Assembly: GCA_950295325.1 (NCBI GenBank)
Contig: OX485806.1
Location: 40,732,001-40,796,000 of the forward strand
Origin: Polytrichum commune
Taxonomy: Eukaryota; Streptophyta; Polytrichopsida; Polytrichales; Polytrichaceae
DNA: 64,000 nt
Direction: 5' to 3'
The notes under the pieces are model-generated. The model did not search any database, was not told the origin of the DNA, and saw nothing but the letters and a program-made list of their open reading frames with translations. This document shows positions 1,542 through 42,538 of this stretch, piece by piece; position 1 is the first letter of the stretch, and each line of letters begins with the position of its first letter. Position numbers and translations under genes: made by a program.

Positions 1542-1839
1542 GTGGAGTCGGTCGACCGAATCCCGACCCCATCCCATGGGCAAGCTGTGGATGACCCTCA
1601 ATCCATGGTGGCACAGGATTTAGGTCGGTCGATCCAAACCCCCTACTAAAATATTTTGTGGAACTATTTTTGGTCTTGCGCACAATATTGGGAGTTCACA
1701 TTTTAGTTGTGTTGCAAATGTTTTTATACTCGGTGTCCCTATTGATCATGATGTCTTGCATTTAGCGATATTTGATTATTTTGGACCCTTGCATTGTGTC
1801 CATGTGTGTTGAGGTTTCATGTGCATGTGTGTAGGCGCA

Positions 1840-3320
1840 ATGGAGGGAGTTGATGGAAGAGGGGATTCCTTCTCTGAAGACATGGGCAACACCCAATCTT
1901 CGTCTGGGGATGAGCTAGACATTGTCGGGGAGGATAGTTTTGATGACAGTGCAGATGAAGGTCATTTGGGGAGTCCTTCGCCATCTGCCCCTTCTTGCCC
2001 CATTGTGGAATGTGCAGGGCTTTCACGAGCTTCATGGGTGAATTTGGATGTGGTACTTGTTAATGACAATGGAGTTGCTGTGGCGGAGGGTATTTGTCGT
2101 AACACACATCCACAAGATTGCATTGATGAAAACCCCCTTGGCACCGAGGACGTTGGAGTTGTTATATTGGAATCACTCGTACATTCCGAAGTGAATCCAA
2201 CTCATAGGTTGTCGCAACCCTTGCTAGCTCAATTAGCAATCTTGCGAATTTTCCTTTCTAGCAAAGGTTACGAGCGCTAACCCTTCGCATTCCGCCATGC
2301 TAATGGTTAGCTCCTCCTACCCCGGACCATATAGTTCATAGAAGGGGAACCAACCCTCCTACTTTGCTTTTGGGACTCACCCCTTAATCGGTAACCCATT
2401 TCTTGGATGTGGACTTCCATCCATGGGAAGTCCAATCCTATGTTGATCATCGCATTGCCGGAGCAACACTACAACAACCCGAAGCATACTAGGCAACTAT
2501 GGCCTCACAATGGGCCAATGCCCATGGAGGCCGTGCCGTTCGGCCTCGGGTGGGTGAGGCCACACCACCTCACCCATATAAGCCTCTAGGACTTCACGCG
2601 GGGCCCCTACCCCACCGTCAACCAACCTCTTGTCTCTCTACCAAGAGTTGGGGCCAAGTGGACATTTTCCTTTAGCTGCTGGGCCTAGAACCCCCCAGCA
2701 GCTTCAGACCATCATAACTTCCTTGTATGATGTCTGATCATAACAACCAACCACTCCATCTTCATCTACGCTTCACTTAGATGCCGATGGACTAATCACT
2801 TGCCCCATTCGGGCAAGTATTGAGGAAGTTATGCCTGTTTGAACCTTGGCAGTCCCGGGAATCACTCCCAGGCACTGCTGTACCAGGGCGCTGTCCCGGG
2901 ACAGCGCCCCACTCAAATGGCCATAACTCCTAGCTCACACCTCCGATTGAGGTGTTCTTGAGCTTTCTAGAATCACCACGCCATGAGCTACGCATAACTC
3001 ATGGCCTTACCCTTGTGCCTCCTAGTCTTCGTGGGTGGGAGGCGTTCCCAACGCCCGGGGCCCTCACCCACACTAGGATCACTTGGGCCCTCTCACCAAC
3101 GGCGCCACAAGTCCCGGGTGTCACTCCGGGGTCCCCCTTGTGCCCATGGTGTTTCGGGCACTCCTCATGGACAGGTGCGCGACATAGGTTCTCGTTGCGA
3201 AGGTGGCCGTTGAGGAATGTGACAATTGAGGGGGTTAGCTTGCATGACCATGAGCGACGACACATCCAAATCCAACAGGAGCTCCAACCAAACATTCGGC
3301 CACGCAAAGGCCTACTGTGA
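1840..3320 (+). pseudogene. Acidic open frame interrupted by a solo LTR
   Basis: An ATG at 1840 opens a Ser/Asp/Glu-rich frame (MEGVDGRGDSFSEDMG...) that runs to 2209. A solo LTR (2210-3184) then interrupts it. If the LTR and one copy of the target duplication are ignored, the frame continues in phase from 3190 (FSLRRWPLRNVTIEGVSLHD...) to a stop at 3318-3320, giving about 170 codons. This shows the site was open when the LTR landed. An AG acceptor-like site (TGTGTAG) lies just before the ATG, so it could be an exon. No domain is recognised. It might be a LINE ORF1-type or host exon; function unknown. Confidence 0.45.
2210..3184. mobile_element. Solo LTR, copy 1 (TG...CA, 5 bp TSD)
   Basis: This 975 bp segment begins TGTCGCAACCC and ends GGTGCGCGACA, so the ends form the inverted TGTCGC/GCGACA typical of LTRs. 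It is flanked by the direct 5 bp duplication TAGGT (2205-2209 and 3185-3189). A second copy lies at 16600-17572 with a different duplication, which shows independent insertion. A TATA-like box (CATATAAG) lies near 2576-2583. A perfect 24 bp palindrome centred on CCCGGG lies at 2886-2909. There is no internal gag-pol beside it, so it is a solo LTR left by LTR-LTR recombination. Superfamily cannot be assigned. Confidence 0.9.
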
Positions 3321-5001: not shown

Positions 5002-7310
5002 TTCTCAAAACCATCACCCGGACTAGGACGCTTAAGGGGGGTGGGTTTGGCCTCACAAGGAGGTTCTAGAAGTGCGCCGCGGCCAGTGCCTTCAGCTAGC
5101 AGATTGTCAGAAGGGCCAAGCAGACACTCCACGCCATCTAAAAGAATTAGGGACGATATGGAGAAGTCTGGTATCACGGAGACAGCTGAGGTCAACTCGT
5201 CGCCTGTCATGCCGACTCCTTTGAAAAAGGGAGAAAACCCTGATGCGGCAAAGGCAACTCGTATCCTTCGCGACTTCAACAATTACTCGAAGGATTGCTG
5301 GCCCATGGAACGGCACTTCACCTTCAATGTGGACTGCTTCAAATGCGAGAAATCCCCCAACAAGTGGGTGGTGAGGTCACGTGAAAGCGGAGGTGTGAAG
5401 TGGCAAATCAACAACTTGATGAATAACGTGAATTGGGATAGGCAAACTGTGTGTGTTATGCCAAAGGGTTTCACTTCCCGTCCCACGGAAAAAGATTGGG
5501 CAAGAATCCAGAACGGGGAGTTTTGGATTATTGATGGACAGCACAGCTTGGAGGCATCGCAGATCATCTTCAAGGATGATAACTTCCAGCATGAGCTCAA
5601 GGGGGACCTGCGCTACTGGAAGGCGTTCCTAGTGTGGTCAGACGACTAGGACAAGCTCCGGAAAATTTCGACATTTTTGAATTCCGGGAATAAAATCAAG
5701 GCGTTTGAGGCATCATGGGCAGCAAACATAGTGGCTGCGAGAGACGTGTGGGTGGCACACGGGTGCCCACCAAAGGAGAGGGAGAATGCAAAAAACCAGT
5801 CTCCACAATGGAAGGTAAGTTTACGAACGATCGTTTGTAAACATCTGGTTCCTTTTCAACATTCTTGATCATTTTATTTACGAACGTGCGTTCGTATTTG
5901 GTAGCCCGCTGACATTGCTTTCTAATGCAGGCGTTTTGCGATGCGATGGTGGACAAATTCTCTTCCATCGACATGAAGTCCACTTCAACGAAGTCAGTGC
6001 TCGAGCTTAAGGATGAGCTATGGCTTATATGTTGCAACAGAGACACCTGGGATTTGTGGACCCAATTTTTTGATGCTCACAATGCGGGGGATCTCGTCAA
6101 CCCCGACACTGAAGAAAAATATAATCAGGAGAAGACTGGAGAGGCGCCTCCGCTGTTGAGGGAATTTTTTAGGCCGCTTCAGGGGTTGACGGAGTCGGAA
6201 TTGCAGAGATGTGCAGTGCATGCTCTTGGGAACACCGTCGGGAGAACAATCCCTTACCCGAAGATATTTCTTAAGAGGCCAAAGCACAGGCCCGGAACGT
6301 ACTCCATCAAGGAGTGGTGCGAACATTGCAAGTTGAAGACCAACGCAATGAGGGAGTTGGGCGCACTCATCCCGGAGTACAAACTCTTCCAGGCCGACGG
6401 AGACATCAACTGGGCTGGATGGAAGGAGTTCAAGGTCGGGTACAACATCAACGGCTCTTCCATGCGTAGGCTAGTTAAGGAACACGCCTCCGTCTTAAAA
6501 CTAAAGGGGAACAAACGGACCAAGAAAGCAGAGACAGATCCCCAGGAGGTGGAGTTGTATATAAAGTTTTTGGAAAGGAAGCGGAGGGCCACATTTGAGG
6601 GAGTGGCCAGATTTTGTTTGGTAACCACTGGGCTGGAGAGAACCACGTTTTCTAAGTGGGACGGCACCATCAGCAAGGCCGAGGTGAGGGAGGACCGCAG
6701 GGGTTGCCCATTTGCCCTGATTGATTTCAGGGGGATCCCAGGAGGTGCGAGGCAAGGGGCAAAGGATTTTCCCTTCTACAACCCTTTCATGGCAAAGTTT
6801 CAAGACTACAGATTGCCTGACATGAGGGAGCCTCACGTATGGATTTGGATAGTGGAACAGGAGAAGCTATCCATTGTGACGGAGCTATACGAAAATACCA
6901 TCAAGTTTGAATACAGCATCTACCACAACACCTACGTGCCCGCAAAAACGGAAGGGATCGTGGCCATCAACGAGGCCAGGGGCAACAAGCAGGTGGGAGC
7001 TGTCAACCTGATCTTCTTAATGTACAATGCTCTCAGAAATGGGAGAGCGCCTGTGAAGGCAAACAATACTTTCAAGAAGATATACAGCATCCCTCACCCC
7101 CCTCCCAAGGAACTGCTACAGGAGACACTGTACACGGTTTTCCCCGCGTTGGAGCTCAGGTTGGAGTTCTACGTGTCAGTGTTGCAGAGCTTGGCAATCA
7201 CTGGAGAGATTGTATACAACGTCTTTGGAGGGGACGAGACTTGTATGCGAGCAATGTTCGGAGAATTGGACAGCGGAGAGCAGAAAATGGAGACCAAAAT
7301 CCAAATATAG
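5002..7310 (+). pseudogene. ParB-like box plus N4/N6 DNA-methyltransferase-like protein, interrupted by a TAG
   Basis: Two exons: an open stretch from 5002 to 5814, and 5931-7310. They are split by a 116 bp phase-0 intron (5815-5930; AAG|GTAAGT, TAATGCAG|GCG). The first clear ATG is at 5158; the true start may lie in an upstream exon. Exon 1 has DCFKC and, at 5527-5544, IIDGQHS, which resembles the D-G-Q-H-R box of ParB-like/DGQHR proteins. Exon 2 resembles beta-class amino-methyltransferases in order: a FALIDFRGIPGG stretch (about 6712-6744) where the DPPY motif is expected, a hydrophobic PHVWIWIVEQEKLSIV strand, AVNLIFLMYNAL, and near the C terminus GEIVYNVFGGDETCMRAM (7205-7258) in the place of the SAM-binding motif I. 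DPPY and canonical F-x-G-x-G are not preserved, so catalysis is doubtful. A TAG at 5647-5649 breaks exon 1, with the same frame open on both sides (VWSDD*DKLRKIS). The intron carries two copies of the ACGAAC palindrome. The domain assignment is motif-level inference. Confidence 0.55.
5815..5930 (+). other. Intron of the methyltransferase-like gene carrying two palindromes
   Basis: The donor GTAAGT is followed directly by a palindrome (TTACGAACGATCGTTTGTAA, 5821-5840). A second palindrome sits at 5879-5896 (TACGAACGTGCGTTCGTA). The intron ends in TTTCTAATGCAG. The phase is 0 on both sides, so the two open frames join cleanly. Confidence 0.8.
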
Positions 7311-9130
7311 ACATTTTGCTAAATTTAGCTCGTAAAATTTAGCAGTTTGGAATATATTTCAGAAATATTCGAAGAATATCATTATTTTTGGCCAATTTTT
7401 GAGACCTATAACCGTGGACCCAAGGGGTTTAAAGATTGAAAAATTCCTATTTTTTGCCTATTACCGTGCTCTCATTTTCCAGTAATATTGGTTGATTTAA
7501 ACAAATTTTTTTAACATGTATGTTTTCGTTGTCTTCTACAGGATGAATATCATCTATTTCTTCGAAGGTCGTTTCTCAAGGGCGCCAAGCACCTTTTTCA
7601 GGGATATATAACCTTGGGCTATGGTCGACTTTTTCTCTTTTTTCGATTGATTTTTTGCTACCTAATCACTATAGGGTTGGGCTATCTACTCTAGGGTTAT
7701 GGATGAGGACAGAGGTGTTGCTGTTTCACTTGGTGACTGTGTAGGCCCATTTCAACCATATGTGGAGGGTGGGGAAGAAGAGCAGGTGGAGGTTTGTAGC
7801 CAGGGGCTTGAAGTGATGGGGGATCTCGAGGTCCGATTAGTTCCGAGAGGAGACCCTTCACCAGCACAGGATACTAGTGACACCTTGGTTTTTGAGGAGA
7901 AGGTGGAGGTGCCCTTGCCACCTCATGCATACTCGAAGGTTGGAAAAATCCCCCTGGGAACTTATTCCCGGGAAACACTTAGTGGGTTGAGGGGACGAGG
8001 TCCATTGTTGAAACGTTCCCACCTAGGATAAATGCCAAGTGTGGTGCCGAAAATGGACGTGAATATAGTTTGTCCTGTAGTGGAGCCGGAGGTTCGTAGT
8101 TACGCCAAAATGGCAAGGGGCAAACCAAAACGCATTAAATTCAATCAATGAAACCAAGTGAACAACCATTGATTGGCAATTATAAAGCGATACATAGTTA
8201 GTACCAATAGTACAGCCCTTAAAAGGGACCGGAGTTTCTATCTATCTATCTACTAATAGTGCATTGGTGGGTGCTTACAAAGTAGTCGTGCATAGTGTAC
8301 TTGTGCTAGGTGGCAAGACATTAGTGGTTAAAGATATAGATACACAATGCAATCAATGTGAATGACAAGACCCTTTATATTGAAAAAGACAATATGAATC
8401 TTATATTGCTGACTCAATTCATGTAATGATGAGGGAATTTTGAGTGGCCACCGTCCATTGACAAGAGTCCAACCGACCAAGCGTGTGTGTAAGCTCTGAT
8501 GTCAAATCATCAAAAATATCCTCCTCAACACTAATAGTGTCCTCTCTGAAGCCAAACCAAAGACTCAGACGTTGTGACGTCATGTAAGCTAGTCCGTCCT
8601 CTTCCATCCGAAAGGTAAGTGGGACTCTCACTCCATGTGCATAGAGGACAACCATCCCCAACTCTACTTTAGCAGGAATATGAGCCATGATGAGGGGAGT
8701 GAGGACTTGCACTAAGAGGAAAATATGAGAGAGGATTCTGAACATTGTGGGCCATCTATATATTACAAATGGGCTGCCAAAGACAACGACATGATGCACA
8801 TGATGGATGAACTCTGAACGAAAGCTCTACTAATATTTTCAATATGGAAACAGCCGCCCTTGAGTCTAAAAGTGATGGGTAACGCTGTCACGATATATAT
8901 AAGTACAGCGTGCAAGTCATGGTAGACATTCTATTTGACAAGAAATTAAATATGATTATTTGGTGCCGACTTAAAGCATAATGCATAACTAGGTCTAGAG
9001 ATAGACTTGACGTTTCAAGACAGGAATAGAACGAATGACAAAGACCCAAGTGGGCATTAAATATAGGACTGTCCCTCGTGCAAACACTTGTATAAGATCT
9101 CGTGATACTCATCTCCTTTGTTTTAGAATC
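7311..9130. other. Mostly unassigned DNA with two hypothetical open frames
   Basis: AT-rich DNA follows the methyltransferase-like gene. One frame at 7699-8031 (+, 110 codons, MDEDRGVAVSLGDCV..., acidic then Pro-rich) and one at 8419-8799 (-, 126 codons, with a hydrophobic start and then ...RVPLTFRMEEDGLAYM...) look more protein-like than chance, but I recognise no domain in either. A (TCTA)n microsatellite lies at about 8239-8255. Confidence 0.3.
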
Positions 9131-12100
9131 ATAAGTTATGGTTATCACTTTATGTGGGTGTCCAATATATGGGTTTCGGGACCGAAACCTTTGTTTTAGT
9201 TGGCCTCATTTCGGGTTAGAATCTAAGTCTTTGAAAGTGGCATATAGGCTTAGATATCAGGTTATCACTTTATGTGGATGTCCAATATATGGGTTTCGGG
9301 ACCGAAACCATTATTTGGAGGTCCCTAAATGGCCTCATTTCAAGATAGAATCTAACACTTTGAAGCCTCGGCTCCACTTTGAGAATTCGGGTGCTCACTT
9401 TATATATGTCTAGTTGGCCTCATTTCAGGTTGGAATCTTACAATTAGAGGCCTCGTCTCTAGGTTCAGATTTTAGGTGATCACTCTATGTTGTCTTAGTT
9501 GGCCTCATTTCGGGTTAGAATCTAAGTTTTTGAAAGTGGCATATAGGCTTAGATATCAGGTTATCACTTTATGTGGATGTCCAATATATGGGTTTCGGGA
9601 CCGAAACCTTCCTTTTGAGGTCTAGAGGGTCACACCCTGAAGTCCCAGCTTCAAGGTTCAATTTATAGGTGCTCACTTTATATATATCTAGTTGGCCTCA
9701 TTTCAGGTTATAATCCAAAGCTTTCAAGCCTCAGCTCTAGTTTGATATTTCGGGTGCGCACTTTATATATGTTTAGTTGGCCTCATTTCATGTTAGAATC
9801 TAACACTTTGAAGCCTCGGCTCTACTTTGAGATTTCGGGTGCTCACTTTATATATGTCTAGTTGGCCTCATTTCAGGTTGGAATCTTACAATTAGAGGCC
9901 TCGGCTCTAGGTTCAGATTTTTGGTGATCACTCTATGTTGTTTTAGTTGGCCTCATTTCGGGTTAGAATCTAAGTTTTTGAAAGTGGCATATAGGCTTTG
10001 ATATTAGGTTATCACTTTATGTGGATGTCCAATATATGGGTTTCAGGACCGAAACCTTCCTTTTGAGGTCTAGAGGGTCACACCCTGAGATCTCGGCTTC
10101 AAGGTTCAAATTACAGGTGCTCACTTTATATAAGTCTAGTTGGCCTCATTTCATGTTAGAATCTAAGACTTTGAAGCCACGGCTCTACTTTGAAATTTCG
10201 GGTGCTCACTTTATATATGTCTAGTTGGCCTCATTTCAGGTTGGAATCTAACACTTTGAAGGTGGGCTATAGGCTAAGATTTCAGGTTCTCACTCTATGT
10301 TGTTTTAGTTGGCCTCATTTCAGGTTAGAATCTAACTCTTTGAAAGTGGCCTATAGGCTTAGATTTCAGGTTATCACTTTATGTGGATGTCCAATATAAG
10401 GGTTTCGGGACCGAAACCTTCCTTTTGAGGTCTAGAGGGTCACACCCTGAGATCTCGGCTTCAAGGTTCAAATTACAGGTGCTCACTTTATATAAGTCTA
10501 GTTGGCCTCATTTCAGGTTAGAGTCTTAAGCTTTGAAGCCTCGGCTCTAGGTTCAGATTTCAAGTGCTCACTTTATATAAGTCTAGTTGGCCTCGTTTCA
10601 GGTTATAATCTAAAGCTTTCAAGCCTCGGCTCTAGTTTGATATTTCGGGTGCTCACTTTATATATGTGTAGTTGGCCTCATTTCAAGTTAGAATGTAGAA
10701 TTTGAGGATGGGCTCTAGGCTTAGATTTCAGGTTCTTATATTATGTGGCTGTCCAATATATGGGGTTCGGGACCGAAACCTTCCTTTGGAGGTCCCTGGG
10801 TGGCCTCATTTGAACTTAGAAACTAACACTTTCAGGCCTCGGCTCTACTTTGAGATTTCAAATGCTCACTTTATATGTGTGTAGTTGGCCTCATTTCAAG
10901 TTAGAATGTAGAATTTGAAGGTGGGCTCTAGGCTTAGATTTCAGGTTCTCAGATTATGTGGCTGTCCAATATATGGGGTTCGGGACTGAAACCTTCATCG
11001 GGAGGTCCCTAGGTTGTCCAATATATGGGGTTCGGGACCGAAACCTTCATTTGGAGGTCCCTAGGCTGTCCAATATATGGGGTTCGGGACCGAAACCTTC
11101 ATTTGGCGGTCCCTAGGCTGTCCAATATATGGGGTTCGGGACCGAAACTTTTTTTGGAGGTCCCTAGGTGGCCTCATTTCAAGTTAGAAACTAACACTTT
11201 GAAGCCTCGGCTCTACTTTGAGATTTCACATGCTCACTTTATATATGTGTAGTTGGCCTCATTTCAGGTTAGAATCTAACACTTTGAAGCCTCGGCTCTT
11301 GTTTGAGATTTCAGGTACTCACTTTATATAAGTCTAGTTGGCCTTATTTCAGGTTAGAATCTAACACTTTGAAGCCTAGGCTCTAATATGAGAATTCGGG
11401 TGCTCACTTTATGTTGTTTTAGTTGGCCTCATTTCAGGTTAGAATCTAAGTCTTTTAAAGTGGCCTATAGGCTTAGATATCAGGTTCTCACTTTATGTGG
11501 GGGTCCAATATATGGGTTTCGGGACCAAAACCTTCCTTTTGAGGTCTAGAGGGTCACACCCTGAAGCCCCGGCTTCAAGGTTCAATTAAAGGTGCTCACT
11601 TTATATATATCTAGTTGGCCTCATTTCAAGTTATAATCTAACACTTTGAAGCCTCGGCTCTAGTTTGATATTTCGGGTGCTCACTTTATATATGTGTGGT
11701 TGGCCTCATTTCAGGTTAGAATCTAACACTTTGAAGCCTCGGCTCTTGTTTGAGATTTCAGGTGCTCGCTTTATATAAGTCTAGTTGGCCTTATTTCAGG
11801 TTAGAATCTAACACTTTGAAGCCTAGGCTCTAATATGAGAATTCGGGTGCTCACTTTATGTTGTTTTAGTTGGCCTCATTTCAGGTTAGAATCTAAGTCT
11901 TTTAAAGTGGCCTATAGGCTTAGATATCAGGTTCTCACTTTATGTGGGGGTCCAATATATGGGTTTCGGGACCGAAACCTTCCTTTTGAGGTCTAGAGGG
12001 TCACACCCTGAAGCCCCGGCTTCAAGGTTCAATTTACAGGTGCTCACTTTATATATATCTAGTTGGCCTCATTTCAAGTTATAATCTAACACTTTGAAGC

Positions 12101-12420
12101 CTCGGCTCTAGTTTGATATTTCGGGTGCTCACTTTATATATGTGTGTTTGGCCTCTTTTCAGGTTAGAATCTAACACTTTGAAGCCTCGGCTCTTGTTTG
12201 AGATTTCAAGTGCTCACTTTATATAAGTCTAGTTGCCACATTTCAAGTTAGAATCTAACATTTTGAAGCCTAGGCTCTAGTATGAGAATTCGGGTGCTCA
12301 TTTTATGTTGGTTTGGATGGCCTCATTTCAAGTTAGAATCTAACACTTTGAAGCCTCGGCTCTAGTTTGATTTTTCACATGCTCACTTTATGTTGGTTTA
12401 GTTAGCTTCATTTCATTCTA
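9130..12420. repeat. Satellite-like tandem array of ~85 bp units with higher-order structure
   Basis: The core unit is about 85 bp: GTTGGCCTCATTTCAGGTTA ... GAATCTAACACTTTGAAGCC ... TCGGCTCTAG ... GTGCTCACTTTATATA. Successive starts include 9413 and 9498. A second unit type adds GTCCAATATATGGGTTTCGG followed by GACCGAAACC and AGGTCTAGAGGGTCACACCC. Near-identical blocks start at 11337 and 11784, a higher-order period of 447 bp. A run of the CCAATATATGGGGTTCGGGA box is locally amplified at about 10964-11150. Several short frames stay open through the array and are not genes. Confidence 0.95.
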
Positions 12421-13277
12421 TTGACTACCATTGTTTGAAACATGGCATTCAAGTGTCTTTACTAATATCTCTGCATGAGTATGTTCAACAATGATATGAG
12501 GTGCACATCTATATTACACAATGGTCTACAAACACAACTTTGAATAGGATCATACTATACAACTGAAATTCTAGAGGTGAAATCGATAAAGTACACTGCC
12601 AATGTTTGCTAATCCGGGTGGTAACTTAGAGATCTGCACATTGGTCATACGGCTGAATTTGTGTTTGTTTGGGTACGCTATGTGTTTAATTTGATTTCTG
12701 GGCTTATGATTTAGTGGCCCTTAGGCAGGTTAGGTTAGGGTGGCAGATTATACATGAAGGGCAACCTGGAATGGGGTGCCGTTGCAGGCACCCCCCTGCA
12801 ATGATTTTTTTTCATTGAGTTTATTGGTCAAAAGGCAAAATCCTTGTTTGTTTGGGTAGGCTAAGTGTTTAACTTCACACTTATAGAGGGTGTACTGTAT
12901 GTGGAGAAATTTTATTAAGAGACCTCCTTCGTGTTTACTTCAAATAGTACATGTTTTTAATTTATAGTAATATGTACTATAGTATACGTGTTTGGATATT
13001 GAACTGGTGACGTCATACTGATGTAAGCCCTAATGTTGTATTTTATTAAAATGTTGGCCTATTTCCATGGTAATAGACTATATAACCATTAAAACTTTCT
13101 AAAAATAGGTAGATGTTTTTCATTCATTCCCGCGGTTATAGGTGCATTTTTCCTCTCATTTCATGTCTCAAATCGAGTTCTCCGCTCTCCGCTCTTCGCT
13201 CACCGCTCTCTGCTCACCGCTCTCCGCTCGCATACTACCTTTCCCCTCTTTGGAGGCAGCAAGTTCAGTACGCGGCC
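12421..13277. other. AT-rich spacer and possible leader of the phosphatase-like gene
   Basis: No coding feature in the first part. The stretch 13150-13240 is a C/T-rich low-complexity run of repeated ctccgctc/caccgctc units immediately upstream of the proposed start codon at 13278. It could be a 5' leader or promoter-proximal pyrimidine tract. Confidence 0.4.
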
Positions 13278-13280
13278 ATG

Positions 13281-13503
13281 GTAAGCTCCCCTTCGAATTA
13301 CGAACGCGTGTTTGTAATGTTCATTGATTCAGATGTTATAATAGTTTTGGCATGTTTTCTCCGTGGGTTGATCTGGCCTTGTCTCAATGTTGTTGTTTAC
13401 GAACGCGCGTTCGTATATGCTGACATGTTTGGAATCGTTGGTTCAAATGTTGGGGTTGGTCGTCAATAACTACGTTGACGCCCAAGATGAGGATGAATAT
13501 CAG
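13281..13503 (+). other. First intron of the phosphatase-like gene, two palindromes
   Basis: A GTAAGC donor directly follows the ATG, and the acceptor is GAATATCAG. Palindromes are at 13298-13317 (TTACGAACGCGTGTTTGTAA) and 13398-13415 (TACGAACGCGCGTTCGTA). As in the methyltransferase-like gene, the first palindrome lies close to the donor. Confidence 0.6.
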
Positions 13504-14898
13504 GTCCACAGGGTGAAAGCGTCCACAATGGACCTCGATGACATGTGTGTCCCTAGGGAGGACTTCAGCATGCCCGTCAACGAGGGCATGCCGGCCATGG
13601 AGACAGACGATGACGAGCCCGCCCCCTCCGTGGACATGGACGCCATCTTGTAGTCGTTCAACATCACTCCTTTACGGATGTTGGCGCCAACGGGTCACCC
13701 TTCTGACCCCCAAGGGACACCGGGGGGCTATACAGGATCCTCGGCTGGGACAACCCAGGATGTCCTCCCCGCTAGAGTGTCTGGTGCGGAACCCTTCGGC
13801 ACGCCTGGCAGCTGCTCGACTTCAGTGTCTCCAAGGCCCGTCGTCGTTCCGAGGATGGAGACCCTCGACCTCCTCGACCAACGCTCGCGTCCATCCTTGG
13901 ACCTCTTCCGGAACACGAGGAGGAGGATGAAGAAGACACCGTACGTGGAGTTGCCGGAGGGAGCAATCATCGAGGTGTCGGACGAGGACGAGGGGGACAT
14001 GGACATCATGGCGGAGCTGGGGGTCGATTACGACAAGAACAAGCGGGTGAAGGAGGAGGCGCTGACCGTTGCCGAGCTGAATGCCAAGCTAGAGCAAAAA
14101 ATGAAGGAGGAAATGGCGGCTGCGGCAGAGGAGAGTGCAAGAAATATGGCCCACATGCAGGAGGCGCTGCGGGAGTCCGCAACAAAGACTGACGCCATAT
14201 TTGAGATGCTCAGAAATATGCAGAGCTTCTCGGCGCCAGCACAACAGCCTTACCCCTTCCCCGGAGGATACCCCTCCCATTCCCCCCCTCCAGGCATGTT
14301 CCCCGGAGGACCTTCGCACCCACCAGCACCACACCCAACGCCAACTGGGAGTCCTCCGCCCCCTCAAATGACTGCCACCCCCGCCAACTCCCACGATGCG
14401 ATAAGGGCTGCCATACGCGAGGACGAAGATTTACGAACGCGCGTTCGTGAATCCTCAGGTCCGGCAGTCCTCACCCATCCCCCTCCAAGGGTAGGACTGG
14501 CCTCATTCACTGAAACCAGTTGTTTCACAGTCGTCCCCAGGGTAGTGGATAGGCAGGGCGATGAATCTGCGCAACACACTGACATGGTCATTGTGGAGGA
14601 AACGCAGGGGAGCCCCAATGACGCGGCAACTGTCCAAAGAATGGACGTTGAGAGCCCTGACCTGGGACGGCATCCATCCGCGGAGATGGAGGATGTCCGC
14701 ATGGACACTCTCGACCTGGGCGGAGACGACGACGACGCGGACCACATTGTGCAGACCCAGGCATCACAATCGGAGCGGGCCACAGATGCCATGGAGACAG
14801 AGACGGCTGGCCCAATGGGGATTACGAACGCACGTTCGTTGATCGAAGAGGAGGGAATTGCTCAGTCCAGCGCCGCTGCCCCTCCCCCCGATGACGAG

Positions 14899-15500
14899 GT
14901 AACTCTCCTCTGAGAATACCACTCATTTGACGAACGCGCGTTCGTAACCACTAACCCATGCGCGTTGTGTTCTTGGCGGTTCCTGTCAATCAACATCACG
15001 AGGCGTGCGAGGACCCTTCTCTACGTGGACCCTTAGCCCGATAAATTTTGTAGAACACGGCATGTAGTTGCCATAGGAAACTGTGAATAATTATCACGTG
15101 AGACAATTGTAAATATTCACCGAATTAATATATGAGCAGATGATCTCTGCGTCGCATCTCCCAAACTTATTGTATCGTATCGCATCTTGTATTATGTATG
15201 TTCATGCGCATCATTACACTTTCACACCCACCTCATTAACGAGCGCCCGTTCGTAAAAGGGTGCGACCATCTGTCCACCTCCTTCACGAACGAGCGTTCG
15301 TACATGTGCTTCTATCCGCGCTCACGAACGAGCATTCGTAAATGATGCGCCACCCCCAGCCTTCATTCACGAACGCTCGTTCGCAAGCCTGCACTTGACC
15401 ACATTCTCCTTGCACTATTTTCCTCGCATAATCGTCTTTTCCTTAATGCAATGTTATTTATTGGATCATAGAATTAAACTAATCGAGTTGTTAATCACAG
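14899..15500 (+). other. Second intron of the phosphatase-like gene, five palindromes
   Basis: A phase-0 intron from GAG|GTAACT to TTAATCACAG|GAT. Both flanking exons stay open across the junction (PPDDE|DPPEIGRKP). Palindrome copies are at 14928-14947, 15236-15256, 15285-15302, 15322-15342 and 15366-15386, the densest cluster in the window. Confidence 0.65.
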
Positions 15501-16327
15501 GATCCCCCGGAGATAGGTCGGAAACCCTCGACCAGTGGACGTCTTACCCGAAACAAACCGTTCGTCGTGTTCGACCTGAATGGGGTGTTGTGTCACACCG
15601 AACACATCCCCTGGGTCCCCACGCGTCCCTTCCGTCACCCCAACGAAAGGGACTACGACGGAGAGCTCGACATGCTCATTAACCGCAAGGTTGTCCGCGC
15701 CCGTCCCCGCCTGCGTGACTTCCTTCGAGAGGTGCTCGATGTAGCTCACGTCATTGTGTGGAGCTCTATGGTCATGGAGAACACCGAGCCAATCGTCGAC
15801 TTCCTCTTCCGCGATCTTCCGAGCCCTTGCCTCATCCTCGGCCAAGAGGATTGCGATGAATTGCTTGACGAAAAGGGTATGCCGGTTCCAAAGTTTGGCG
15901 GTCGTGGTGGAGGACAACAATTCCTTAAGGTCCTGAGGTCAAGACTGTGGCGGGGCATCCCCCGGCTGCAGGGGGTACCCCACGGGTGGTGGCCGACCCC
16001 CGAGAACACCGTCCTCGTTGACGACAGCCCCACCAAAAGCGTCTTGAACCCCCCGGGGAACGTCATCTTCCCCGCCACTTGGACCGGCGATAGGAACGAC
16101 ACGTTTTTGTTCGATACGCTAGCGCCTTACCTTAGAAGGCTTGTTGTCCACGCCGGTAGCATACCATTTTTTGTTAGGTCCAACCCCATCGGCAATGTGG
16201 GTTTAAGCCCCCGTGATAATGTATTCAAGAGCATCATGAGGCTCGCCAAACTCAATAAATTGATTTGAAATTCCTCCATGTCTTTGCTTGTTATCGTGTG
16301 GTTCACATATCTAATGTTTGCTATGTT

Positions 16328-16371
16328 TTGGATGTCTTTTGTTGTTGTGATTGTTGTTGTTGTTGTTGTTC
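16328..16371. repeat. (GTT)n microsatellite near a splice acceptor
   Basis: A run of gttgttgtgattgttgttgt repeats immediately precedes the TTGCCCATAG acceptor at 16372-16381, serving as a T-rich tract in the proposed intron 16221-16381. Confidence 0.7.
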
Positions 16372-16599
16372 TTGCCCATAGTCTGCCCCAATATGCGACG
16401 CCCCTGTGGTCGACGGCCCTTCCCGTCCCCTCTCGCCCCCTGCCTTCCCTTCCCGCGACGTCACGGACTTCCAAATGCCATCCCTCTACCAGTTCTCGGC
16501 GGTGGACGCGGCCTCGGCAGTGGATTACTCCCGCCACGTCGGCATCGACGACGGCGTCGTCAACAGCCCACCCCCCGCACTTGTCGCCCGCGCCTACGC

Positions 16600-17572
16600 T
16601 GTCGCAACCCTTGCTAGCCCCCTTAGCAATCTTGCCAATTTTCCTTTCTAGCAAAGGTTACGAGCGCTAACCATTCGCATACCGCCATGCCAATGGTTAG
16701 CTCCTCCTACCCCAGACCATATAGTTCATAGGAGGGAACCAACCCTCCTACTTTGCTTTCGGGACTCACCCCTTAATCGGTAACCCGTTTCTTCGATGTG
16801 GACTTCCATCCATGGAAATCCAATCCTATGTGGATCATCGCATTGCCGGAGCAACACTACAACAACCCGAACCATACTAGGCAATTATGGCCTCACAATG
16901 GGCCAAAGCCCATGGAGGCCGTGCCGTTCGGCCTCGGGTGGGTGAGGCCACACCACCTCACCCATATAAGCCTCTAGGACTCTACGCGGGGCCCCTACCC
17001 CACCGTCAAGAGACCTCTTGTCTCTCTACCAAGAGTTGGGGCCAAGTAGACATTTTCCCTTAGCTGCTGGGCCTAGAAGCCCCCAGCAGCTTCAGACCAT
17101 CATAACTTGCTTGTATGATGTCTAGTGCTAACAAGCGACCACTCCATCTTCATCTACGCTTCACGTAGATGCCGATGGACCTCTCACTTGCCCCATTCAG
17201 GCAAGTATTGAGGAAGTTATGCCTGTTTGAACCTTGGCAGTCCCGGGAATCACTCCCAGGCACTGCTGTACCAGGGTGCTGTCCCAGGACAGCGCCCCAC
17301 TCAAATGGCCATAACTTCTAGCTCACACCTTGTATTGAGGTGTTCTTGAGCATTGTAGAATCACCACGCCATAAGCTACGCATAGCTCATGGCCCTACCC
17401 TCATGCCTCCTAGTCTTTGTGGGTGGGAGGCGTTCCGAACGCCCGGGGCCCTCACCCACACTAGGATCACTTGGGCCCTCTCACCAACGGCGCCACAAGT
17501 CCCGGGTGTCACTCCGGGGTCCCCCTTGTGCCCATGGTGTTTCGGGCACTCCTCATGGAGAGGTGCGCGACA
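16600..17572. mobile_element. Solo LTR, copy 2 (TG...CA, 5 bp TSD) inside an exon-like frame
   Basis: This 973 bp segment is colinear with copy 1 at 2210-3184. It begins TGTCGCAACCC and ends GGTGCGCGACA, flanked by the direct repeat TACGC (16595-16599 and 17573-17577). The surrounding frame (...ALVARAYA) continues in phase after the second TACGC (PSPSPFSKEKRTLV), so the insertion is recent relative to decay of the exon. It has the same TATA-like CATATAAG near 16963-16970. The long palindrome of copy 1 is present with two changes (GTGCTGTCCCAGGACAGC). Confidence 0.9.
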
Positions 17573-18329
17573 TACGCCCCGTCGCCCTCCCCCTTCTCCA
17601 AGGAGAAACGGACGCTCGTTCGTTTGGGGCACCTCTCGCCCTCTAGGGACGACGGCGTCGCTCGTCGCGGGCCGAGCCGGCGTCTCCGCATGGACTCCGC
17701 CCCCGCTGACTCCGTTCCTCCCCCCGCAACGTCCTCCCCGATAGTGGGCCCTCCACACCTCGACTCCCCCCACCATTCAACAGTGCAATAGTTCCATCGG
17801 CTCCGGATGCTCCCGTCGACGCCCCCCTCGTTCCCACCGTTCCCCGCATGGACGTCCCCAAAGCCAAGGTGCCCTCCTCAACCCTAAACCCCTTTCCCGC
17901 TTTTGCTTTGCTTGTCTTCCGTGTGCGTGCCGTTCTCTTTACGAGCGCCCATCCCAAACCGCCCTCATTATTTTCCCCACTCCATTCCTATTCTTATCTT
18001 CCTATGACGTTGTTTCGCAGGTGGCTACCCGCTCGCTTGGTGCCCGGCCCTCCTTCACGTCCTCCTTGGATAGGCACTCCCTCAAGGCCGCATCATCCGA
18101 GTCCGATCGTTGTTTGGCCCTCCGCCGTAGCGCAAGACATTCCCTCTCGCAAACGCACTCGTATTCCACTCACAATACCACTCCCCACAATTTGGGAGCG
18201 TGTCCGGAAATTTGGAAGAACAACGGGTATTCCGGGTCCGTCAACAAAAACGGTTATAGCCGCGGGCCGGAGATTTTCAGGGCCATGGAGGCTGCCAAAA
18301 ACAAGGACAAGGCTGCGGAAAAAAAATAG

Positions 18330-19728
18330 TGGGTGGGACTAGTGTGACTAGAAGCGTACTAGTGGGACGGACTCCCTAAATGGGCTTAGGTGTAGAACAT
18401 ATTTAAGTGCTTACTTTCTATGCTATTCCAAGTTACTCAAGACATTGATGGTATTTCCATTATAATTGTATTTCAATCCCAATTAATTCATTGAACTTCC
18501 ATTCATTCTTCGCATCTTCCCTTCCATTCATAACGAGTTGTCATTTCATACGCAACTATTTTCATGTATGCCTCATATTTTTGTTCACTTTCATGCCTTT
18601 ATGTATAATAATAGTAGCATACCATTATACATATGGGATTTTTAGTTGTCATTACTGGTCCAATTTTGAAATGTGCATCCTTATATAGTCTCATAATCAA
18701 CAAAAAGTCTCCAAATACCGAATATAGTGTTATGTTTGTTATTCGAATTTTTGGACAAATTTTCTTTTTTCTTTTGTATTTTTGTTAGTTATTGGTTCAA
18801 ATATTCTTTGTAAACTTCAAATTGGTAGGAAAACATTGAAATTAATGTATTTTAGGTAAAACATGGGATTGGTGAACAAAGGGGTAGAATGTTCCTAACT
18901 ATAGGTTGAAGATTTAAAAAGTCTTATAATGGGGATAAGGACTTTTGGTTGGCTTGGCTATGGACAAACCCGTCATTTGAAGGCTAAGCCACTGGCCTTT
19001 CGTCTCTATAGAGCCGTGGGCCATAGTCAAACCCAGTCATAGAAGACTCGAGCAAACTCCATTTTTCAGACTTTCATTTCCTCTCAAGGAAAGAGTGGAT
19101 CTCTTGTCATTTGTTGGAATTACCAATGCTATAATCTGAATTAAAACTCTCTCTTCCTGAGAATTTATCATGTGTGATCTTTATTATGGTTGTGACCATC
19201 TTGTTAAGAACGATTGTTCAAACTATGATCTATGAAACTACCCAGGTGTGAAGCCTGTGTGGAATATCAAAGTTTTTGAGAGATATAAGTCAAATCGTCT
19301 TGACATGCGTACAACCATAATCTGGATTTGGACCATCCCCCCCTTGAGTGTACTCCCACTACAAGGAAAACACAAAACAATGACGAGGGTTTATGACTAA
19401 TATACGTAAGGAAGTGCACTGATGACTAACACCATTTCTAGTCCTCAACCCTAGACATGATTTGTCGCGCCAATATGTGTGGAAATATTCATTGTCGTGT
19501 GCCAGTGTTCACATCCTCGCCTAAATAGAGTTATTTGAAGTAAATTAACATAATTCTAGTGCAAATCGTCTGATTAGTGAGAGGATATGAAGCCCTTGCC
19601 AGTTTGAAATTATCTTAGTGGACTCCAGAGCTTTCAGGAAGAGAGTGCAATCTTCCTAATGACTAAATCATATCATTGCCATCATGAAGCAAATCACAGA
19701 ATGTAACGCTCAGAATTTCTAAAGAAAT
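18330..19728. other. AT-rich non-coding DNA
   Basis: GC content drops sharply after the AEKK* stop at 18329. No gene, RNA or repeat structure is supported in this stretch. Confidence 0.5.
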
Positions 19729-20675: not shown

Positions 20676-23600
20676 GTGTTGAGTTATAATCAAGGAAGAT
20701 TTATGATTAAGTTCTGAACTATCTTAGCCCGAGGGGGACCATAATCTCATGGAGCCTATTGTGCCCCAATTGCGCAACACATTTTGATTATGGTCTCTTG
20801 ATTTACCCATGGCCTCATACCTCTAGACTTTGGTAAATTGGTTTTCTATACTAAGCTTCCAACTCTAAAGGCCAATGGTCATCTAAATTGATTGTTGTCT
20901 TTGCATTAAATTAATTTTATTAATGATTTTTTTTACAAAATATAGTCATACTATGAACACATTGACATGAATGTAATATAAACGTCTGAGAGTTAACATA
21001 AATAAAAGCTCATTGTGAAAGGAATATAAACTAGCAATACGTATATTATTGGTGAGAAACAATGGAGTAAATAATCACGTGAAATGCATTCGAAAACAAA
21101 CTCATGGATCAATGAACCATGGTATAAGCATGTGTATTGGCTTGTTATGGCCTATGGTTTCGGAAACTTACAGGATGTCGTCCTTCAGTTGGTTCAAGTA
21201 AGGACAATGGTCCTACCGCCTCACTAAAATTCAGATAAATCATGAATTTTTGGAATTTTTGGAATTTAGTTAAAATGTTGAATATTTTTCTTCGAATGAT
21301 AAATGATATTAAGTTTGCTACAAGATGTTTCATTAGTAGATGATCTAGAGTTGGTAAAATAATAGATAATCTTATAGCTCCTAATTTGTTTAGAATAGCT
21401 CATTCTAGTGGCTCACCATAGATTGACATTTTATATCAATTGTGTTTTTTTCCAATCCAATTGGTTTAATATTTTTTACAAGAGGTTGTAGGTGTCCCGT
21501 GAGGTAGTTTGGAACACCACTCCGTTGACGATATCTAACTTAAAATGCTCACCGCAAATTGCCAATTTCATTATAATAATGAATTTTATACTAAAAAATA
21601 GGTCTTGAATCTTCTATTCAATCTAAATAAACTCATAGTATTCTAAAATTATTCTAACAAGTTATAGGTGTTTCGTGAAACAACTTAGAATATCTAATGA
21701 AGACATCAAAATTTACAAGTTCATTATGATTTATCACACTATTTTTTTATAATATTTATATTCAAAAATAGATGTGGAAATTATCTTTATAGTTCAAAGA
21801 ATTCTATGGTATTTCAAATTTTAAATATGGAGTTATGGGTATTTTCGTGAGGTCACTAAAACCCTTATTTCAAACTCTCTAGAGATTTTTGTAATACTCA
21901 TGGATAATTATAGTAGATTTTAGGTTACATTGAGGTACATTGTGATAATCAAAAGGTATTAGATGGGTTTAGTTAATCTAGAACAACTAAGTTTGAGTTA
22001 AAAATTAGGTATTTATTACGGTTACCTACATTTACTCCATTCACAAAGAGTTTCAAAGTACTTTAGTTCATTTGTAATTAATATTAAGTACAAATTTATC
22101 TATAGCTTGGAAGTTCAAGGGGTGTTAATTTTATAACATACATGGAAGAAAAAAAACTTTTTAAAATTACGTATGCATAAAGACAAATGTTAGATGTGGC
22201 ATATCTCTAACCCTAAAACCTAGCCTATGGTACGTAGAATGTAGAGCATTATTTTCTTATGCAAGGAGGATTATTGGATATCCTCAACATTTTAGAAGTG
22301 AAGATGCTCTAGGTATTGCTTAAGAGAATGATAATTCAAAATGAATGGTTATATTGTTGGATTTGAGCTAGAGTTTATATTTTGTTGGCTTATGTTTTAA
22401 TCAATGTATTCTTGAAAAAAATGTTCATTGATGTGTTGGTTTATTTTTGTTATGTTTACAATTCTATGCCTACAACTCAAAAATCTCTAACTCAAAAATC
22501 TATGGTTATATTGAGGAAGGTGTTTTCGATTTGTGAATGCTTGTAGGTAAAAAATAAACATGGTTCAATGTTGAGTTTACATTCTCGTATGACATTACTG
22601 GTTCACTTTATCTATGTTTTGGCTTAGTTATTTATTTTAGCATATTTGATTTCACATGGGATATGTTTGACATAGAACACTTTAATGTAAAATCTATAAG
22701 AATGAAGGTTGTGAACTTCAATGGCAGGTGAGTGGATGTCTTGATTTTTTTTTGTAATTGCAAAATAGTGCAAGAAATCCTTGCAAATAGTTCCAAAAAT
22801 GGTAAATTTTGTATACTATAAATTTTGTAATTAAATATTATCATAAATGATTATTTTTTTATTGGAAAAACACTTCGTAAGAGATAATAATTGCAACACC
22901 GTAAATCTATGATGCCTAAAAAATTGTGTAAGGATTGAAAATTAATGTTAGGTTTACAGTTATTGCTCCATAAGTTTCTCGAATTCTTACTTGTACGACC
23001 AAAAATAAATTCATTGTCAAATAAAAAATGATGTAATAAAGTTGAAATAATGATATTGATGATTGCAATATTATTTGTGATTACAACCATATCGTATTGA
23101 AAATGGATATTTATTTTATTTAACTCTTGTAAAACATCTACAAGTAAGTTCAAGTAAATATTAGAGAACCAATCCGGCCCATCATCTTTCAATAATTCCA
23201 ATATCACCAACACACACTGTAGTAAGCTGTGTCATAATGTGGGCTGAATTATGAATGAAATGTAGACATTCATGTAACTTAATGGCTATTATGAATGCAT
23301 TATTATGTTGATGCTATTTTAATATTGATATTTATTATTATTTCAATTATTTATCAAGTTGAAGCATGTATTGTGGTTGAGGATCATGAGGGTTAGTTTT
23401 GGAGATAAGATTACCAAATGGTGGTATAGTTAGGTTTTTGTTTATAAAAAAACACCTAGGGAAACACTCAAGGAAGACTTTAAAGGTGATTTTGATATCA
23501 TCTAGGTGTCACAAACAAGTTTATTTAGGGAAATACATGCTAATTTCAACTGATTACAAGTTTGATCCAAAAAGTATGTGGTTAGTGACGGGATCAAGAG

Positions 23601-40620: not shown

Positions 40621-42538
40621 TTGCTACAGAGTCCCGGCAAGCCAACTGCCGGTGACTGGAAAGTGCGGAGTCCCAGCAATCCAACTGCTGGCGGCTCGAA
40701 AGAAAAACAACCTCACCACTTGTTCTCTCAACAATTTGCCTCTTGCGAACAGAAAAAAAAAAGTGGGAAGGAGAAGGAAGGGACCCTTAAATATCCTTCC
40801 TCCCACTTCCTTCCCTTATTACCGTTTGTTTTAACGGAAAACGGTTGCCAACCGTTTTCCGACGGTTTTCCCCCAACCGTCATAAATCCGTTGTAACCGC
40901 CACTTCCAGACCGTGGGTTAATCTTGGCGCGGCCGTTACTTGGTCCGGACCATGATCAAACGGTCCTCTCCTAATCCAATTTGACGGACCGGTAATAATG
41001 CTCCTTTTTATCCTTTTTATCGTGCGAGGCGGATTTAAATTGCCCTATTTCCTAGTACAATTAATTTACCCTAAGAGACCCTATTGTCCTCATACGGGCA
41101 AGGTAAAATATGGAAAATGGATCCGTATTTCCGTATTTTTGTATTTCCGTATTTCCGTCGAATATTGGACTCCCACATGTTGGGTTAGACTGAATGAAGC
41201 CCTACCTCAATCACATTGTGTTGTGACAGGAGGTGCTTGTGGATCTACTCCCAAAACATTTGATGTTTTTACACATGGTTGACAAATGATGCACCTCACC
41301 ATTTGTGTTTGCGCCACATCCACATAAGCATGTGAGTCTTAGATTGCGTAGAAGGCCCAAACAATGTTGGCTTGGTGGTAAGGGACCTAACTACAAACAC
41401 AATCAAAGAGCACCACATATGAGCAGCGCCATGCAACGGTTTGCTCAACCTGCAAAACCTCCTTTGGTGATGTTGGCGAGTTGCGTGCTTCGCTAGCCAA
41501 TCTCTATATCTCCTCCAACTCTTCGGTAAGAATTGTACTCCCAATCTCAGCCCCCCTTTCCCTCTTAAAATCACTAAGAGTTCAACCCTCCATCTTTCTT
41601 AACAATGCAATCCCCCAAACCCCCCCCCCTCTTCACCTCCCCCTTACAAACAAACAAAAACGTTGTTGTTCCCTAGAACTCCTAAAATGGCAGCATCAAC
41701 ACAAAATGATAATGAGAAATCTAAAAATCTCCACATGCACACTATCTCTAACCTTTTCCCCATAATGCATCCAACAAAATTGAACAAAATGAACCTTCAA
41801 GTGATAGTGCAACATGACCTCAATCTCCACCTCACTCTCAATTCTTGTAATCATGGCATGATGAATGCAATGACCACATCCACAAATTTACACTATGAAA
41901 AGAGCAACACTCCTCCTCCCTTTAACCCCAAAAAACAAAAAGGAAAAACACAACGAATGTGCAAGAAACCTAAACATTGACAAGAAACACCAAAAACAAA
42001 GAGTCTATGCCATGCATTAGAAGAAAAAAACATTTCTTGCATTAAAGGTGTCTGGAAACACGATAAAAACCTCGCTACGAGTAGCAACACAACAACAATT
42101 CAAGTGGGAGAATACATGTGTTGATGCTAGGCTACCACCCATGAGACTACAAACACTTGTGAAAACGAGGTTTGCTATATTCGTTACTATATTCGTCACT
42201 ATATTCATTAATTTGGGACTTTTTCGGCATTTTGAGACAGTTACAAATATAAGAACATGGATAAAATCACACATATATTGGAGAATGTTGTAAGATGCAA
42301 ATACTTTAAAGCGGGTGTTCATATCAAGAACCCAATTAAGAACTCATATCAAGATGATTTAGGTAGGACGACCCAGACATTAGACCATGTTGTTGTGGTC
42401 CATATATTAATTTGAGACAAGAGAAAGTCTCAAATTAACGAATATAGTGATAAAGTAGTGTTTTCTCAAAAGACACTTGCATACACTAACACCATCAACC
42501 TCTACTATTAATGGCAAAGCTTGTAATTGTAGACACGT
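40621..42538. other. Unassigned DNA between the retroelement and the hAT relic
   Basis: Contains short repeats of ttccgtattt near 41126-41160 and a C-rich run near 41620-41629. A low-complexity A/C-rich stretch lies around 41600-41960. No gene supported. Confidence 0.4.

Follow-up and report, generated by a model that had tools for sequence, protein, structure and literature searches.

Family-specific palindromes in a DUF7869 transposon of the moss Polytrichum commune as candidate operator sites

The locus and its palindromes

The DNA analysed here, referred to as the window, is a stretch of 64,000 nucleotides from the moss Polytrichum commune (C4:40732001-40796000, within the 407.8-Mb assembly GCA_950295325.1), in which a short palindrome recurs inside a 5'-truncated copy of a large DNA transposon. 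The transposon comprises a transposase gene (A) and two further coding parts, B and C, the window copy containing B and C together with the right inverted end; copies marked by the palindrome TTACGAACGNNCGTTCGTAA are termed class 1. The features of this copy are as follows.

5058-18731, plus strand: class-1 transposon copy, 5'-truncated, with parts B and C and the right inverted end, recognised by homology to copy L002
5058-7231, plus strand: part B, start missing, with an in-frame TAG at 5647-5649 and the DGQHS motif
5821-5840 and 5878-5897: palindrome pair within the part B intron (about 5815-5930, from splice sites predicted in the sequence)
7232-13246: insert of ~6 kb interrupting the copy
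13247-18342, plus strand: end of part B and part C, with a long frame at 13654-14913 and the 3' part broken by a solo long terminal repeat (LTR)
13298-13317 and 13397-13416: palindrome pair between parts B and C, 3' of a splice-donor-like GTAAGC at 13281
14431-14450 and 14822-14841: palindrome pair within the open frame of part C
14928-15386: five palindromes (starts 14928, 15237, 15284, 15322 and 15367) in the putative intron preceding the phosphatase exon (about 14899-15500)
15495-16268, plus strand: NIF-type phosphatase (PF03031), within part C
18703-18731, minus strand: right terminal inverted repeat AACACTATATTCGGTATTTGGAGACTTTT

Homology to L002 covers 5058-7231 at 92.6% and 13247-14256 at 91.1%, where L002 stops. 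At up to 3 mismatches, TTACGAACGCGCGTTCGTAA has 11 copies in the window, all within 5821-15386, compared with a mean of 0.00 in dinucleotide shuffles of the window (n = 100) and with a mean of 0.045 and a maximum of 2 matches for control palindromes with shuffled arms (n = 200). A preliminary description of this DNA had placed about a dozen copies between 5.8 and 18 kb; the cluster is confirmed in number, none being expected, but it does not extend to 17950, since the matches at 17606 and 17939 carry 5 mismatches each, a level at which shuffled palindromes give 2.2 window matches on average, and are thus at chance level. The two genes that had seemed otherwise unrelated are parts B and C of one transposon, and the palindromes appeared confined to them because the array at gene A and the array upstream of B are absent from the window copy.

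A genome-wide count, which would have refuted the palindrome family had it been no higher than expected, returned 3737 exact copies of TTACGAACGNNCGTTCGTAA and none of the reversed pattern, which is also a palindrome, and so did not refute it.

The carrier transposon

The palindromes are sites inside a large DNA transposon of about 16 kb. Nine of nine loci picked by the palindrome (L001-L005, L032-L035) were homologous to this one element; like the other fetched loci, they were drawn among the matches listed, in a sample that leans to contig C1 and falls short of a full survey. The suggestion of a tiny, independently mobile palindrome is not supported by this result. Around 14 palindrome clusters, a strict inverted end was present within 20 kb on both sides in 5 cases, on one side in 6 and on neither in 3.

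A complete copy (C3:22519659-22535752) measures 16.1 kb and has 29-bp inverted ends that are 90% alike. Its minus strand carries gene A, in which the Pfam domain DUF7869 was detected on two exon pieces (54.5 and 69.2 bits, curated cut-off 26), enclosed by the inverted ends and a target duplication, as befits a DUF7869 DNA transposon. Its plus strand carries parts B and C, the latter holding the NIF-type phosphatase (Pfam, 2.9e-16). In classes 1 and 2 (the latter described below) the B frame runs stop-free into a splice-donor-like GT, for which reason B and C are probably a single spliced gene. Among 14 elements for which both ends were sought, 10 had identical 4-bp target duplications, 2 had swapped flanks, and 2 lacked one end in the fetched piece; the pattern of the inverted ends has 335 + 352 matches in the genome. 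As a separate observation, C3:58.13 Mb and C3:58.38 Mb (L016-L019) hold inverted copies ~248 kb apart with exchanged duplications (ACAT/AAGT and AAGT/ACAT), which inversion by recombination between the copies, or misassembly, would give.

B exon 2 gave 91 scored matches from 1152 candidates, 73 of the 91 being free of stops, and the ratio of non-synonymous to synonymous substitution rates (dN/dS) was 0.078 and 0.141 for B exon 2 and 0.142 and 0.241 for the phosphatase. Two class-1 subfamilies are separated by a dS of about 1.25 in B exon 2 (dN/dS 0.078).

Of the 30 sites in the C3 copy, 10 adjoin the start of gene A and 9 precede B; 2 lie within the intron of B and 2 in the gap before C, and the other 7 belong to C exons and the intron that follows. 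At up to 3 mismatches, no site occurs within 3.8 kb of the left end or 2.4 kb of the right end. Individual positions are conserved: the pair in the B intron recurs at the same position in 10/10 other class-1 copies (L002-L005, the C3 copy, L032, L036-L039), and the pair between B and C has its equivalent at 21309 and 21382 in the C3 copy. Sites are also retained in the absence of B. A non-autonomous type of 9.4 kb, found twice (97% alike over 7 kb), carries 46 and 47 sites together with short scraps of A and the phosphatase and has no match to B; in one of its representatives, L044, the two ends are present, with a CTTA duplication.

Geometry and conservation of the sites

The two arms of the palindrome are separated by a centre that is fixed at two bases and largely free in sequence. 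Genome-wide, the arms of TTACGAACGNNCGTTCGTAA have no copy with a 3-base centre; the palindrome with centre GC has no exact copy and that with GT/AC has 23. Across 315 fetched sites, GC (1) and TA (2) were the rarest centres, while CA, CG, TG and CT predominated. Symmetric conservation reaches about 24 bp through an AT...AT extension, the extended form ATTTACGAACGNNCGTTCGTAAAT having 1234 genome copies. No helical phasing of the sites was detected (vector lengths 0.08-0.18).

Changes in the arms were surveyed in these 315 sites, 169 of them exact and the others with no more than 4 mismatches, from 14 sources, the window included. One-sided changes accounted for 190 of the 210 changed arm pairs and two-sided changes for 20; therefore, arms do not as a rule change jointly inside a family. 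This runs counter to the earlier impression that the arms usually change on both sides, changed pairs being one-sided in 17/17 cases in the window and in 139/153 among 110 distinct 20-mers from the 14 sources. All 14 two-sided pairs among these 20-mers were complementary; 1000 permutations gave 6.6 on average and 14 at most, which indicates a small excess of two-sided change. These data bear on the idea that the palindromes act as RNA hairpins in transcripts, which would suit the presence of sites in introns and exons and the ability of the arms to pair. Core transitions producing G.U (40) were not above those producing A.C (47), the changed pairs were overwhelmingly one-sided, and arrays also lie outside reading frames; an RNA hairpin is accordingly disfavoured, and we regard it as highly improbable.

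A further possibility is that tandem-repeat expansion produced the palindromes as unselected by-products and that recent copying has kept them alike. Many sites do lie in tandem arrays, and the class-4 sites of L048 described below form one such array, but expansion would leave the spacers as conserved as the palindromes, and the sampled loci show the opposite. Over 8217 cross-subfamily pairs, motif identity was 0.92, a value partly set by construction as sites were picked at up to 4 mismatches, against 0.265 for the 20-bp flanks, in a comparison that left the window copy out and whose sources overlap those of the arm-change survey. Shuffled palindromes in the same DNA gave none below 4 mismatches, and 84/146 sites had no flank more than 50% identical in another subfamily, so that the same palindromes sit among unrelated spacers. 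Single intron and exon sites, the persistence of the palindrome in subfamilies at a dS of about 1.25, and the fact that sites have changed together inside a family also speak against by-products, an origin that we find very doubtful.

Sibling families and their palindromes

A second palindrome class, TTACGGACGNNCGTCCGTAA, differs from class 1 by one symmetric position, changed in both arms. It occurs at places corresponding to the class-1 sites in two families of 17.3 and 17.9 kb, which share the ends and gene order of class 1 and have the duplications CACT and TAAG. The genome contains 1310 TTACGGACGNNCGTCCGTAA sites and 60 one-arm hybrids, compared with about 1980 hybrids if arms were paired randomly (arithmetic from the class counts), and none with a pyrimidine/purine pair at the switched position. 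When sites within 3 mismatches were assigned to a class, the expected one was found in 349/352 sites of fifteen class-1 sources and in 42/47 sites of two class-2 elements; a class-1 copy at 79% was pure (20/20 class-1 sites). The change is therefore coordinated between arms and specific to the family.

Between classes 1 and 2, amino acid identity is 69-78% for the transposase, 60-62% for the phosphatase, 42-54% for B and 30-32% for the N-terminal part of C, and DNA identity at the left end is 82-84%. The switch of palindrome thus goes with larger differences in B and C than in the transposase and the ends.

Searched with DUF7869, the genome gave 150 scored matches among 1491 candidates. Two loci taken from this match list without regard to palindromes, L047 and L048, have palindromes of their own, counted here at the fetched loci rather than genome-wide: ACGGGTG-NN-CACCCGT in L047 (class 3; 7 exact) and TGGGTCG-NN-CGACCCA in L048 (class 4; 12 exact in a 78-bp array). 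Both have the 2-base centre of class 1 and adjoin the start of the transposase frame; in shuffles of L047 (n = 200), no 7+2+7 palindrome appeared more than once. The class-4 palindrome is also present in L007 (4 exact, 1 near) and L045 (1 exact, 2 near), which have no DNA homology to L048, and these sites were not placed in an L048-type element because the L048 transposase is unmatched there. In addition, L048 has at 243-998, beyond the class-4 inverted end at 2646, a frame whose VYDGNHRLLAW resembles the DGQHS stretch of part B; this frame has no Pfam match. The window itself includes, at 1819-3311, part of a DUF7869 transposase of class 4 (L048-type; protein identity 72-77%), which is split by a solo LTR.

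The sibling families allow two alternatives to be weighed. The palindromes could serve transposition and not expression, as accessory sites at which the transposase or a TNPA-like helper binds: they are numerous and kept in the non-autonomous 9.4-kb type, and in each of the four classes the copies seen have arrays next to the transposase gene. Against this, several sites lie in introns, it is in the transposase and the ends that classes 1 and 2, with their different palindromes, differ least, and the internal positions in the C3 copy disfavour subterminal transposase sites in particular; the explanation is unlikely. Alternatively, host dimeric transcription factors might occupy the sites, with different families exploiting different factors, which would agree with their location next to gene starts and also in introns, and with a second unit that has no recognised DNA-binding domain. 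That all palindrome-picked loci fall inside the element, and that the symmetric one-position change tracks the transposon family, make host factors an unlikely explanation.

Proposed role and candidate binding protein

The interpretation that we favour, by a modest degree of belief and from sequence evidence, is that the palindromes act as operators, specific to each family, for a dimeric protein that is probably encoded by the transposon and keeps the element expressed. A protein-binding operator had been among three initial guesses, next to the tiny mobile palindrome and a methylation target, and is the best supported of them, given the fixed centre, the symmetry to ~24 bp, the absence of G.U bias and the family-specific symmetric changes. 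A dimeric DNA-binding protein is suggested by the fixed geometry, symmetry and free centre of the sites, their unrelated spacers, their retention without B and their family-specific changes, and a role in expression control, anti-silencing or activating, by their placement beside and inside the genes of the element.

Each site is a two-fold symmetric sequence of 20-24 bp with a fixed 2-base centre, and sites lie next to the start of gene A, upstream of B-C, in the B-C introns seen and in some C exons. In the proposed mechanism, a symmetric dimer from the transposon would bind them, the B-C product being the favoured candidate, followed by the transposase, because B and C differ more between palindrome classes 1 and 2 than the transposase and ends do. 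The bound protein would keep the genes of the element expressed against host silencing, as VANC does for VANDAL elements, and a palindrome private to each transposon family would let each serve only itself.

Searches on part B, which has no significant family match in Pfam, PHROGs, NCBIfam or PADLOC, gave DUF6551 as the best, weak profile match (E 0.12). Its DGQHSxEA stretch is kept between classes 1 and 2, and the search for a ParB/DGQHR-like domain gave this profile match and no usable fold; viral contigs searched with the two B exons yielded nothing useful.

Several observations weigh against the operator interpretation. Profile searches recognised no DNA-binding domain in B or C, and a sequence search of solved structures gave nothing significant. 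Two AlphaFold models, built on shallow alignments, were too poor (mean pLDDT 32.4 and 42.8), and Foldseek with the second, poor model returned no match at E <= 0.001 (best 0.95). The dS of B exon 1 was not computable. The most divergent fetched class-2 copy is mixed, with 3 GC and 2 GT among its 5 sites. In classes 3 and 4, whose palindrome counts have the restricted scope given above, the 8.5 kb seen yielded no homologue of either B or C; B-C may for this reason not be the binder there, and the transposase remains a candidate. Sites are not independent, because copies share descent, and a host protein could be the binder instead.

Other features of the window

Two solo LTRs that belong to one family and are 94% alike break the transposase fragment and part C.

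2210-3186: solo LTR, splitting the transposase fragment
16600-17574: solo LTR, splitting part C

Their flanking repeats, as read in the sequence, are TAGGT and TACGC. The 6-kb insert is bracketed by a 10-bp duplication, TCTTTGGAGG, at 7222-7231 and 13247-13256, as from a MULE-type insertion. Its tandem repeats (9172-11979) contain a second palindrome, GGTTTCGGGACCGAAACC, in 12 copies at up to 2 mismatches (0.01 expected), which also has 8 copies at up to 1 mismatch in L011. A short stretch at 42195-42451, both ends of which resemble the inverted ends of the transposon, is perhaps a miniature relative.

Comparison with known systems

High-copy palindromes linked to a transposase also occur in bacteria, as REP/BIME sequences with REP-associated transposases; a REP-like element would have palindromes dispersed by themselves, whereas the moss palindrome belongs to a large element in the loci examined. 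The TNPA sites of En/Spm (CACTA) elements are subterminal, with many copies of a short motif, and these elements have 3-bp target duplications; in the moss element the sites are internal and palindromic and the target duplication is 4 bp. Target duplications of 4 bp occur in Sola and other superfamilies. This duplication length is the likeness noted between Sola and the moss element, in which the domain is named by Pfam only as DUF7869.

VANDAL elements have a MULE transposase and target duplications of about 9-10 bp, and their VANC protein acts by binding to the motif, with removal of DNA methylation. Membership of VANDAL fails on the 4-bp duplications and the DUF7869 transposase of the moss element, whose second unit, moreover, is joined to a NIF-type phosphatase. 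In workings, the closest system is nevertheless that of the Arabidopsis VANDAL elements and their VANC anti-silencing proteins (PMC5735166, PMC10398659). In VANDAL elements the motif arrays precede the transposase gene and also occupy introns of accessory genes, and related families differ in motif (PMC5735166). Both arrangements recur in the moss, which likewise has a multi-gene DNA transposon with short-motif arrays and tandem-repeat turnover. The VANDAL motif is a 9-base one-way sequence, in contrast to the 20-24-bp palindrome with a 2-base centre and some exon sites seen here. The likeness is thus one of apparent workings, drawn from descriptions of the two systems; searches of part B gave no Pfam family.

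A wider proposal, offered tentatively although we give it almost even standing, is that a whole superfamily of DUF7869 transposons in this genome uses family-private palindromic addresses (7-11-bp arms, 2-base centre). Each address would be recognised by a dimer that the element encodes and that belongs to a new DNA-binding family, with a specificity that switches symmetrically as families split. This would be an independent, palindrome-based equivalent of VANC, with at least four systems in one genome. Neither the element nor palindromic transposon labels were described in the literature covered, which consisted of titles, abstract openings and part of PMC12730594, most subscription papers being outside its scope. 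Palindrome clusters in such genomes may be transposon labels and not host operators, a caution for their annotation. The VANDAL/VANC papers cited above address the question of how selfish DNA comes to recognise itself and nothing else, and of how such recognition shifts. Four related palindrome classes are available for this question in the present genome; two of these have more than 1000 exact sites each and are one symmetric position apart, and, since matching diverged proteins accompany them, protein-site coevolution is directly testable by swapping.

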